In this document: positions 15,057-19,234 of the stretch, piece after piece
How the letters are laid out: every line of letters begins with the position of its first letter
How positions within the stretch are numbered: position 1 is the stretch's first letter
Assembly (NCBI RefSeq): GCF_024346315.1
Contig: NZ_JAGQCS010000003.1
Location: 124,001 to 188,000, forward strand
From: Cyanobium sp. ATX 6F1
Lineage (GTDB): Bacteria; Cyanobacteriota; Cyanobacteriia; PCC-6307; Cyanobiaceae
Reading direction: 5' to 3'
DNA length: 64,000 nucleotides
The notes under the pieces: model-generated
Database searches by the model: none
What the model was told of the DNA's origin: nothing
The model's input: the letters and a program-made list of their open reading frames with translations, nothing else
Translations under genes and position numbers: made by a program

Positions 15057-16304
15057 TTGAGCGCTGAATCCGGCACCCCATCCAGCGATCCAGTGTTCCA
15101 TGCCCCCGTGGCCATCGGGATTGTGGGGGGCGGCCAGCTGGCCCTGATGCTCGCCGAGGCCGCCGCCGAACTGGGGGTGGAGCTGCATGTGCAGACCCCC
15201 TCGGCGGACGATCCTGCCGCCGCCCTGGCGGCTGTCGTGGTGCAGGCCGATTGCGGGGATGCGGCGGCGACCCGCCGGCTGGGGGCGCACTGCCGGGCGA
15301 TCAGCTTCGAGAACGAATGGGTGGACCTGGAGGCCCTGGCCCCCCTGGCGGCCGAGGGTCTGGTGTTTCGCCCCAGCCTGGCGGCGCTGGAGCCCCTGGT
15401 GAACAAGCGTCGTCAGCGGGAGCTGCTGGAACGCCTGCATCTGCCTTCCCCCCGCTGGCTGCCGTTGGAGCGCCTGATCGAACCCCTGCCGTTGGAAGAC
15501 ATCCCCCCACCGATCACCGCCGACCCAGTGGAGCCGCGGCCGGTCTTCGACCTTGGCTTTCCATTGATGGCGAAGGCCTCCACCGGTGGCTACGACGGCA
15601 AGGGCACCCTGGTGATCCCTGATCCCGCGGCACTGGAGGAGTTGCTGGAGCGGGTGGATCCCACCGAGTGGATCCTCGAGGAGTTCGTCAGCTTCGACCA
15701 GGAGCTTGCCCTGGTGGCCTGCCGGGATGGCCAGGGTCAGGTGGCCTGGTTCCCCTTGGCCCGCACCCATCAGCACCAGCACGTGTGCGACTGGGTGCTG
15801 GCACCCGCCTCGGTGGACCAGGCTGTTGAGGCCCTGGCCCGCAATGTGGCCGCTTCGATCCTGGCCAGCCTCGACTATGTCGGTGTGCTCTCGATCGAGT
15901 TCTTCTATGGGCCGGGTGGACTGGTGGTGAACGAGCTGGCGCCTCGCACCCACAATTCCGGCCACTTCACGATCGAGGCCTGCCGGACCAGTCAGTTCGC
16001 CCAGCAGGTGCGAATCGTCAGCGGTGACAACGTGGCAGACATCGACTTCGATGGGCCCGGAGCCCTGATGGTCAACCTGCTCGGCATCGAGCAGAGCGCA
16101 GAAGAGGAGGCCGAGCGGCGAACGGCCCTGGCGATGCTGAACGGTGCCCACCTGCACTGGTACGGGAAGCGGGAGCCCAGGCCCGGGCGCAAGCTGGGGC
16201 ACCTGACCGTGCTGCTGCAGGCCGCCACCCCGGCCGAACTGGAGCTCGAGGCCGATCGGCGTTTGGCGGAGATTCGTTCGATCTGGCCCTTGCCTCCAGC
16301 TTAA
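15057..16304 (+). CDS. purK: N5-carboxyaminoimidazole ribonucleotide synthase
   Basis: ATP-grasp enzyme that carboxylates AIR with bicarbonate in purine synthesis. The 415-residue product shows IGIVGGGQLALMLAEAAAEL at the N-terminus, ISFENEWVDLEAL, FPLMAKASTGGYDGKGTLVI (ATP-grasp lysine/glycine loop), WILEEFVSFDQELALV and the strongly conserved NELAPRTHNSGHFTIEAC. The start is TTG at 15057, with no better in-frame codon. It is slightly longer than the usual 360-390 residues because of an insertion near residues 140-170. The gap after it may contain a structured RNA. Confidence 0.96.
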   Translation: MSAESGTPSSDPVFHAPVAIGIVGGGQLALMLAEAAAELGVELHVQTPSADDPAAALAAVVVQADCGDAAATRRLGAHCRAISFENEWVDLEALAPLAAEGLVFRPSLAALEPLVNKRRQRELLERLHLPSPRWLPLERLIEPLPLEDIPPPITADPVEPRPVFDLGFPLMAKASTGGYDGKGTLVIPDPAALEELLERVDPTEWILEEFVSFDQELALVACRDGQGQVAWFPLARTHQHQHVCDWVLAPASVDQAVEALARNVAASILASLDYVGVLSIEFFYGPGGLVVNELAPRTHNSGHFTIEACRTSQFAQQVRIVSGDNVADIDFDGPGALMVNLLGIEQSAEEEAERRTALAMLNGAHLHWYGKREPRPGRKLGHLTVLLQAATPAELELEADRRLAEIRSIWPLPPA

Positions 16305-16321
16305 GCCCCCTAGGATGTGCT

Positions 16322-16555
16322 CGGACTGCTGTGTTGGTCACTGCCTTCTACAGTTTTCTGATCTGACTCCCTTTTCGACTTGGGGGGTCTGTCGCGACGG
16401 CGACGTAGGCCGGCCTTGAGCCGGAAACGAAACCCCGCTTTGACCCCCCTTCTGGTTCATCCAGGTCGGAATCTGGGGCAGAACGGCATGGCGGTCCACC
16501 CCTTTCTTGAATCAGCCCGCAGAAGGTGCCTGATGGGCCGCTACCTGACAGCGCT
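16322..16555 (+). ncRNA. Candidate structured RNA downstream of purK, possibly 6S RNA
   Basis: The 310-base gap between purK and the J-protein gene has no coding support but many nested complementary segments. From outside in: GCTGT 16328-16332 with ACAGC 16548-16552; CCTTCT 16344-16349 with AGAAGG 16521-16526; CTGAT 16358-16362 with ATCAG 16511-16515. A perfect 8-bp stem GGGGGGTC 16382-16389 / GACCCCCC 16442-16449 encloses two hairpins (16391-16404 and 16410-16424). A -10-like TAGGAT sits at 16311-16316. A long rod with internal bubbles fits 6S RNA, which I recall lying next to purK in cyanobacteria, but that recollection and the ends given here are unverified. Confidence 0.4.
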
Positions 16556-16614
16556 GATCGCTTCGCAGCCACCCCACTAAGGTCGTAGGCACGTGCTGCA
16601 GGCATGATTCGCTG

Positions 16615-17241
16615 ATGCCGACCAGCCGTTCGAAGCTCCGCTCCGAGCGATTCCGCTACGGCTGGATCAGTCTGCTGATCGGGGCGCTGCTCACCGTTCT
16701 GATCGTGGCCAACGCGGCGCACGAACGGCGCGTGGGCAACACCCAGATTGCTGATGACAGCCTGTGGATGCTCTGGTCACCGGCCATCTTTGCCGTGGCG
16801 GGGGTGGTGTTCATCGCTCGGGGACTGGCGCTCGAGAACTCCCTCAAGCACCTACCCACTTTCAGGCGGCCCCGGCGGCCGCAGTTGTTCAAGCCTCGGC
16901 CGAAGGCTGATCCCCCTTCCGAGCGAGGCCGCAGGCGGCAAGCCAAGCCGGCCGCCGCCCGAGCAGAAACGGCCGAAGCGGAGGCCACTGAAGCGGCATC
17001 CAGAAGCTCACCTCCCCCGGCGGCGGCGCCAGAGGCAAGGGAGATTCCCCTTGATGATCGTTACCGCCAGGCCTGCGCGGAATTGGGGGTCGAGCCCGGC
17101 ACCGATTGGATGGTGATTCGGGCAATCTGGCGCCGAAAGCTCCAGAGCTGGCACCCCGACCAGGGGGGAGACCACGAGGTCTGGTTGCGCAAGACCGCCG
17201 CCTACACCCTGCTCGAGGCCTGGGAACAGTTCAAGGCCTGA
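16615..17241 (+). CDS. Membrane-anchored J-domain-like protein
   Basis: A 208-residue protein. Two membrane spans (about residues 18-36 and 57-73) are followed by a basic, Pro/Ala/Glu-rich linker of roughly 60 residues and a C-terminal J-like domain: RQACAELGVEPGTDWMVIRA, then WRRKLQSWHPDQGG with the HPD tripeptide needed to stimulate DnaK, and a closing AYTLLEAWEQF helix. This would recruit a DnaK to the membrane. The helix before HPD carries several Trp and the domain is short, so J activity is an inference from HPD plus layout. Confidence 0.75.
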   Translation: MPTSRSKLRSERFRYGWISLLIGALLTVLIVANAAHERRVGNTQIADDSLWMLWSPAIFAVAGVVFIARGLALENSLKHLPTFRRPRRPQLFKPRPKADPPSERGRRRQAKPAAARAETAEAEATEAASRSSPPPAAAPEAREIPLDDRYRQACAELGVEPGTDWMVIRAIWRRKLQSWHPDQGGDHEVWLRKTAAYTLLEAWEQFKA

Positions 17242-17305: not shown

Positions 17306-19132
17306 TCAGGCCTTGATCACCTGATCTCGCCCCTGGCGTTTGGCCTCAAGCAGGGCCAGATCACTGCGGATCAGCAGGGATTCGCTGGTGTCTTCCTCCC
17401 GGCGCCACTCCGCCACCCCCAGGCTGATCGTGATCTTCACCATGCCCTTTTCAGCGGGGATGCGCACGTCCTTGACCATGGCGCGGATGGACTCGGCCAC
17501 CCGCAGGCCGGCGCTGATGGTGGAGCCGAAGAGCAGCACAACGAATTCCTCCCCCCCGGTGCGGCAGAGCATGTCGGTTCCGCGCAGCCGCGAGCGCACC
17601 ACCTCCACCAGGGCGACCAGCACCTGATCACCCACGTCGTGGCCGTAGGTGTCGTTGACGGTCTTGAAGAAATCGATGTCCATGGCGATGGCACAGATCC
17701 CGGCTCCAGAGCGTTTGCCGCGCAGGATCTCTTCGTTGAGGCGACGGAACAATTCGCGGCGGTTGAAGCAGCCGGTCAAGGGATCAATCGTGGTGAGCCG
17801 CTCCAATTCCTGCTCCCTGGCTTCCAGGGCCTTGTTGGTGCTCTGCAGGCTGTTGGTCAGTCGATTGATGTCTTCGCCACGCTGGTTCACGATCAGCGCG
17901 AGGTCCTGAAGTTCAGTCACCAGGGAGAGCTTCAGCTCGGGCAGGTGTTGCGTGTTGAGAGGCCCACCACTGCCGATGTCGATCAAGGGGCTGAGCATCA
18001 GTGTGAACTGGTTGTCGATGAAGCGTGCAAATACCTCACTGAGGAAGGAGCCAAGTATCAGAATCCAAGCCAGAGTGCCAAGGAAGCGGGCACTGGCCAT
18101 TTGCAATTCGAGCACATTGTTGGCGGCAGTTTCCACCACGAAAACAGTGAACTCCTTGACCACACCATTGATCTCATAGGCGTTGAAGCTCTGCCTGCGG
18201 GCCCAGTAGCTCTGCACCCACCGCTTCATCTCCGGCATCGGTTGGCGCGGGGAGATCAGTTGAAGTCCATCAGCCCTGGCTGTGCTCAAAACAGGTTGCT
18301 TGTAGTCGCTGCGAAGATCCTTGAACAGTTCTCGATTGGAGCTGTAATGAACTCCTTCGTTTGAGTTCACTTCAAAGTTGATATCGTGCTGTGTACTGAT
18401 CGGATTATCGACCAAGCGCTCATTGCTTTTCACATTCTTGATGATTACATCCGAGGCAATATTGAGCCTCTCCAGGACACCGTCCTGAACGCTGCTCACC
18501 AGTTCGTGGCTGCTCATCACCGTGATGATCAGGCTCGGCACGGCAATCGACAGAAAGGTGATCGCCAGAATCAGATCTTTTAAGGAGAGTCCCCGTTCCT
18601 CGCCCACGGGAGCCATGGTCTTGATCGCCAAAAAGATGGCAAAAGCGATCGCGGTGTTGAGCACCCCATTCACCCCCTGCTTGAGGGCGGCCAGGGTCGT
18701 GTTCGCCAGGTCGATGCCGATCACCTGGTGGTACAGCAGGAACACCAGCGGGGCCCCCAGCACCAGCCAGTAGAGAACGTCGCCCACCACGACATGGCCA
18801 TAGCGGCTGTGGCCGTCCCGTCGCAGGATCGTGTTCACCGCCACGGTGAGCCAGATGATTTCGGCGGTGAAAGTGAGCACGGCCCAGCCGTGGCCCCACA
18901 ACGTGATCGTGGCAAGGGAGGCGATCACAGCGATCGGGATCGCCCGCCCCCCCCCACCCAGCAGCAACACCAGCACCGGAACAATGGAGCCGAGCAGCAG
19001 ATGAACGCCGAATAGCAGCGGAATCGGCTGAAGGTTGAGGCCGAAACTCACCAATCCCAGGACCACCACCAGCAGCAACTGGCCTGGCGCCGTGCGCCAG
19101 CGATTGGGTGGATGGGGTGGGCTCGTTGCCAT
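17306..19132 (-). CDS. Membrane diguanylate cyclase (GGDEF)
   Basis: Makes cyclic di-GMP from two GTP. The 608-residue product has about seven N-terminal membrane spans, a large extracytoplasmic sensor-like segment (about residues 220-340), another span, a helical linker (SLQSTNKALEAREQELERL) and a GGDEF domain starting TIDPLTGCFNRREL. The active site is GGEEF (about 526-530). An RGTD lies exactly five residues before it, a complete RxxD inhibitory site, so product feedback is expected. The ATG at 19132 is preferred to an upstream start. It is the only GGDEF protein here and complements the HD-GYP and PilZ genes 12 kb away. Confidence 0.93.
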   Translation of the reverse strand: MATSPPHPPNRWRTAPGQLLLVVVLGLVSFGLNLQPIPLLFGVHLLLGSIVPVLVLLLGGGGRAIPIAVIASLATITLWGHGWAVLTFTAEIIWLTVAVNTILRRDGHSRYGHVVVGDVLYWLVLGAPLVFLLYHQVIGIDLANTTLAALKQGVNGVLNTAIAFAIFLAIKTMAPVGEERGLSLKDLILAITFLSIAVPSLIITVMSSHELVSSVQDGVLERLNIASDVIIKNVKSNERLVDNPISTQHDINFEVNSNEGVHYSSNRELFKDLRSDYKQPVLSTARADGLQLISPRQPMPEMKRWVQSYWARRQSFNAYEINGVVKEFTVFVVETAANNVLELQMASARFLGTLAWILILGSFLSEVFARFIDNQFTLMLSPLIDIGSGGPLNTQHLPELKLSLVTELQDLALIVNQRGEDINRLTNSLQSTNKALEAREQELERLTTIDPLTGCFNRRELFRRLNEEILRGKRSGAGICAIAMDIDFFKTVNDTYGHDVGDQVLVALVEVVRSRLRGTDMLCRTGGEEFVVLLFGSTISAGLRVAESIRAMVKDVRIPAEKGMVKITISLGVAEWRREEDTSESLLIRSDLALLEAKRQGRDQVIKA

Positions 19133-19234
19133 GGTTCTGCCGGGAGGCCGAGCCGACCCGTGGGGACGTTCCAGCAAGTACCTGTTTTAGCGGATGATCT
19201 CTTGACTGACTGGGGCTGTTGTTGTCCTTCTCCG

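Follow-up and report, generated by a model that had tools for sequence, protein, structure and literature searches.

Our analysis identifies positions 16320-16501 on the forward strand of the window, meaning the whole 64,000-nucleotide stretch of DNA that was analysed, as an ordinary picocyanobacterial 6S RNA gene in its known location next to purK. What is established for this locus is its identity as 6S RNA, its fold, its presence in a single copy, its conservation, its position next to purK and a -10 box that is conserved as well. We are almost certain of the fuller reading, in which a single 6S gene of the ssaA/yfr7 type, with a promoter of its own at the purK end, would yield an RNA of about 180 nt that acts as a bubble-mimicking decoy for RNA polymerase until pRNA synthesis sets it free. 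For cyanobacterial 6S RNA, the location, the size and the fold were all known before, which makes the organism of the window one more example. The features of the locus are as follows.

15057-16304, forward: purK, 5-(carboxyamino)imidazole ribonucleotide synthase; stop codon TAA at 16302-16304, start codon assigned mechanically and uncertain
16311-16316, forward: TAGGAT, putative -10 hexamer of the 6S promoter, with the TAG in frame with purK
16320-16501, forward: 6S RNA (ssaA / yfr7 type), RF00013 match
16072-16341, reverse: open reading frame of at least 60 aa overlapping the 6S RNA
16348-16722, reverse: open reading frame of at least 60 aa overlapping the 6S RNA
16380-16580, forward: open reading frame of at least 60 aa overlapping the 6S RNA

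The 6S RNA and its fold

The Rfam 6S model RF00013 matches this stretch with 98.8 bits (E 1.3e-18) against a cut-off of 46.4, and the 182 nt matched align to positions 1-187 of the 187 in the model, that is, over its full length; a first-pass annotation made from the raw sequence had correctly named the RNA. It had also recognized a structured RNA of about 230 nt, of which the structure stands but the length does not, as the RNA is about 180 nt long, inside the usual 6S length of about 180-200 nt, and the 3' end had been set about 50 nt too far. In the flanks of 30 family loci, compared by eye, only a short pyrimidine/T run is common past approximately 16501-16506. The first base likely lies at about 16322-16323, judging from the spacing to the -10 hexamer, and both ends of the RNA are to be taken as predicted. 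The possibility of a 6S RNA elsewhere in the genome, raised in the first-pass annotation, was checked with RF00013 at E up to 10, and no second match was found in the 2.96 Mb of this assembly (17 contigs, 99.98% complete). The only other Rfam match in the window at the gathering cut-off is a tRNA, classed as tRNA-Ser.

The core at 16320-16501 folds with -80.4 kcal/mol (z -3.33), a stability equalled by none of 200 shuffles. Its antisense strand, too, is more stable than its shuffles on average, to a lesser degree than the sense strand (z -2.21, 3 of 200 shuffles), and the longer interval 16322-16555 gives a z of -1.90 (9 of 200 shuffles), which is weaker because the final 50 nt or so contribute little. 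The elements of the fold, all on the forward strand, are listed below.

16323-16336, forward: closing stem (helix 1), 5' arm, pairing with 16484-16497
16484-16497, forward: closing stem (helix 1), 3' arm, outermost helix
16354-16367, forward: predicted pRNA template, placed by alignment with what we take to be the E. coli start site
16365-16381, forward: central bubble, 5' strand, from the Rfam structure line
16382-16389, forward: inner G/C stem (helix 5), 5' arm, GGGGGGTC, pairing with 16442-16449
16442-16449, forward: inner G/C stem (helix 5), 3' arm, GACCCCCC, a perfect match to the 5' arm
16450-16462, forward: central bubble, 3' strand, from the Rfam structure line

Covariation was assessed in an alignment, A1, of 22 family sequences including the window's own, for which the RNAalifold consensus has 50 pairs. 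This alignment and the model R1, built from the same 22 sequences, represent 22 of the first 30 family loci, eight (L008, L012, L016, L017, L021, L023, L026 and L030) having been omitted for thinning by no fixed criterion and before sequence comparison. Standard pairs fill 98.1% of the cells compared with 93.2% in shuffles, a percentage helped by construction because the structure came from the same alignment. Two-sided changes occur in 19 of the 50 pairs, against 6.2 in shuffles, with 0 of 500 shuffles as high, and none of the five measures computed was reached by any of the 500. Related sequences can outscore shuffles, and the two-sided changes are stronger evidence than the percentage paired. 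When the pairing partners were slid by 1-3 columns as a control, pairing fell to 38-48% and the two-sided pairs to 2-6. The covariance support in relatives that the first-pass annotation had proposed to look for is hence strong.

The architecture expected of a 6S RNA, comprising a long closing stem, a central bubble and a bulged apical stem, is present and backed by covariation. Helix 1 has 14 pairs, six with two-sided changes and 99.0% of cells paired, and the eight pairs of helix 5 include five with two-sided changes, with 94.3% of cells paired (5.7% unpaired). Helix 5 surrounds two hairpins and is itself enclosed by the outer helices, which confirms the perfect stem around hairpins described in the first-pass annotation. 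The open bubble is taken from the Rfam structure: in the single-sequence fold it is partly closed, and the RNAalifold consensus places short helices inside 16365-16381 and a CTGG...CCAG hairpin within 16450-16462. The latter, helix 9, is invariant in all 22 sequences and is thus uninformative for or against its pairing.

Conservation beside purK and competing readings

Matches to RF00013 above the cut-off were found in 135 of 151 sampled genomes of the family, the window's own included, representing 48 of 59 genera, and among the genomes with a completeness of 90% or more and a contamination of 5% or less, 92 of 94 have such a match. In a sample of the phylum that again includes the genome studied here, 102 of 117 match at E 0.01, 56 of these above the cut-off. 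The 16 family genomes where no 6S match was found include 14 that are less than 90% complete, and a renewed search of five of the 16 (RF00013 at E up to 10, and R1, whose empty result carries no weight in itself, as it was run with no positive control) found none. Of the two more complete genomes, G149 has only a remote purK-like match (31%, E 9.9e-18), which makes an assembly gap likely there. The other, G025, is 95% complete in 20 contigs. It carries a purK of 51% identity, but scanning and reading the sequence that follows (L053, after 2649) revealed no 6S RNA, and none was found elsewhere in the genome; loss is possible, and so is a fault in assembly or binning. In G118, a genome with 4% contamination, a further and partial 6S match lies at a contig edge (C4:12-126) and is perhaps foreign or split sequence.

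The upstream neighbour is called as purK by NCBIfam NF004679 (E 6e-121) and TIGR01161 (E 9.1e-107), with Pfam ATP-grasp and PurK_C domains, and ends 15 nt before the 6S model start on the same strand. The purK-adjacent location stated in the first-pass annotation holds well beyond the window: all 65 family loci compared, which come from 48 genera, have purK immediately upstream of the 6S RNA and on its strand. They were chosen from the 135 matching genomes as the 30 best-scoring plus a single representative of each of the other 35 genera. Elsewhere in the same class or phylum, purK lies directly upstream in 20 of 27 loci, with gaps of 22-133 nt; these loci are the best-scoring of 99 matching non-family genomes, two of an original 29 besides the window's own (G017 and G010) having been dropped as members of the same family. 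The remaining seven of the 27 (among L060-L087) have a 6S match and no purK match in the upstream 1.5 kb, and the link to purK therefore seems not to be universal in the phylum.

Searching 26 further loci with R1 located a 6S RNA in 22, in each case just after purK. These include all 21 named purK loci, from records titled Synechococcus, Vulcanococcus, Cyanobium or with broader cyanobacterial names, and the same-genus locus L052 (genome G051). R1 found no match at the purK or purK-like loci L053-L056, whose genomes were already among those with no 6S match. At least three of the contigs tested are, judged by their length, training rows of R1, and the test is thus only partly independent.

Downstream, the next open reading frame (16615-17241, forward, 208 aa) weakly resembles a J-domain towards its end (Pfam DnaJ, E 0.03, 14.9 bits against a cut-off of 27.8), and tblastn (E 1e-4) gave no match to it in the 1.5-kb flanks of the 29 other best-scoring family loci, one of which contains an N-run. 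Beyond it, 17306-19177 (reverse) encodes a putative diguanylate cyclase (GGDEF, TIGR00254, E 1.8e-47) with a long N-terminal part that by eye looks membrane-embedded.

With a model start just 15 nt past the purK stop, possible read-through from purK, and no terminator found by an intrinsic terminator search, including between purK and the 6S RNA, the structure could in principle be a cis-acting 3' UTR or an attenuator or terminator of the purK mRNA that gives no separate RNA. We regard this as very improbable, as the match is to a trans-acting RNA family over its full length, a -10 hexamer stands immediately ahead of the RNA in 65 of 65 family loci, the seven outside-family loci described above retain the 6S RNA with no purK match upstream, and in relatives the RNA gives distinct signals on Northern blots and its 5' ends have been mapped (PMC1242208, available part).

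A small protein gene, either the antisense 124-aa frame at 16348-16722 or the sense 66-aa frame at 16380-16580, is to our minds less probable still. Both frames are open, and opposite-strand frames at this place have been annotated as genes in MIT 9313 and WH 8102, but their expression was not detected in that work (PMC1242208, available part); moreover, the changes seen in relatives keep base pairs, and neither frame has a Pfam match at E 0.001. That scan covered 16348-16722 (reverse) and 16380-16580 (forward, minus its first residue). The third frame, 16072-16341 (reverse), overlaps the 6S RNA by 22 bases and is mostly antisense to purK. The first-pass annotation had called the stretch non-coding on either strand, which agrees with the scan of the two overlapping frames, though we acknowledge that such a claim rests on absence of evidence. 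A separate 6S RNA remains our reading of the locus.

Proposed mode of action and known 6S systems

A promoter of its own at the far end of purK would drive the 6S gene and give a product of about 180 nt. This RNA is expected to fold as a long rod whose central bubble would imitate a melted (open) promoter, and, by virtue of its family membership, to occupy RNA polymerase carrying the housekeeping sigma factor (sigma-A) as a decoy. Copying of a bubble strand by the polymerase into a short pRNA would then release the 6S RNA. The template position given above depends on our assumption as to where the E. coli 6S pRNA starts; from it the window's template would yield a pRNA 5'-GUCAGAUCAGAAAA, beginning 5'-GUCAGAUC, and the corresponding template sequence of the E. 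coli RNA presumably differs. On the 5' side of the bubble, 64 of the 65 family loci carry the block TCTGATCTGACTC unchanged. It is by analogy with relatives that we propose that the RNA is transcribed, binds the polymerase and templates pRNA, and that it may have a role on leaving nitrogen starvation.

The closest of these comparisons is Yfr7, which the available part of PMC1242208 places downstream of purK, as it does the 6Sa RNAs of PCC 6301 and PCC 6803. Northern analysis in that work gave a single Yfr7 signal of 175-185 nt in each of four marine Synechococcus strains and four Prochlorococcus strains of the low-light type; high-light Prochlorococcus gave two, at about 200 and 300 nt, from which it appears that transcript size varies in relatives. 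The window resembles the Yfr7 loci, as far as that source extends, in having purK upstream on the same strand, a size comparable to the approximately 175-185 nt of Synechococcus, a bubble with a closing stem, and opposite-strand frames; unlike them, it has a 15-nt gap between the purK stop and the model start and a J-domain-like next frame. The Synechocystis 6S RNA (PMC5721685) belongs to the same RNA family and lies directly downstream of purK according to PMC1242208. In the available part of PMC5721685, in vitro binding to E. coli RNA polymerase, inhibition of transcription and templating of pRNA are attributed to it (citing that paper's ref. 28), and its deletion is reported to slow recovery from nitrogen starvation and the recruitment of SigA. 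The authors argue there that trapping of inactive RNAP-SigA is not the main mode in nitrogen starvation and that 6S RNA aids SigA recruitment in recovery, which suggests that its role may differ from that in E. coli. The E. coli 6S RNA (ssrS) belongs to the same model, RF00013, that the window's RNA matches over its full length. Its neighbourhood differs, the adjacent frame being ygfE, although its distal promoter P2 lies inside that frame and thus likewise in a neighbouring gene (PMC2662882, available part).

The -10 box and the purK stop codon

The first-pass annotation had noted a -10-like TAGGAT six bases ahead of the proposed start; the hexamer is present, with a spacing to 16322 of five bases rather than six. 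A TANNNT motif stands just ahead of the 6S RNA in every one of the 65 family loci, and in 64 of them it starts between -8 and -10 relative to the model start, compared with a background of 60 in 2640 equally wide stretches, mostly within purK, of the first 30 loci. A generic sigma-70 promoter scan returned nothing at the locus, and no recognizable -35 box was seen.

By a strict count, which excludes L116 with its hexamer at -15, the purK stop codon forms the first bases of the 6S -10 hexamer in 41 of the 65 family loci. The shared stop is TAA in 27, TAG in 14 and TGA in none, and the sixth base is T in all 41, compared with T at the same position in 4 of the 24 family loci whose purK stop is elsewhere and in 4 of 20 such loci outside the family. 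Sharing was also seen in 16 of the 22 R1-matched loci, which partly repeat the same genomes, and in 0 of 20 loci outside the family, where the -10 box lies apart from the purK stop. As relatives are non-independent, these counts of sharing are not counts of events.

In the window, the TAG of the hexamer (16311-16313) lies in the purK frame two codons past the TAA at 16302-16304, starting nine bases later, and the hexamer is in frame with purK in 55 of the 65 family loci, the shared ones included. The simplest history would be that purK acquired an earlier stop and that its old one persists as the -10 box. We favor, with some reservation, the broader proposal that in this family the purK stop doubles as the start of the -10 box (TAA or TAG followed by NNT), limiting the choice of stop and perhaps coupling purK to the 6S RNA, with the window in a derived state; given a shared stop and -10 box, selection on the promoter would limit the choice of purK stop codon and fix the end of purK. 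No mention of such sharing was found in the available parts of PMC1242208 and PMC2662882 or in open literature listings, subscription papers being outside this scope.

In summary, the analysis pinpoints a global transcription regulator in the genome of Cyanobium sp. ATX 6F1. If the proposal of a shared stop codon is true, transcription of purK could interfere or be coordinated with the output of 6S RNA, and the window would represent a derived state in which a new TAA arose nine bases earlier and the old in-frame TAG was retained for the promoter. A stop codon shared with a -10 box would be a neat case of how small genomes are compacted, and one that is simple to test.
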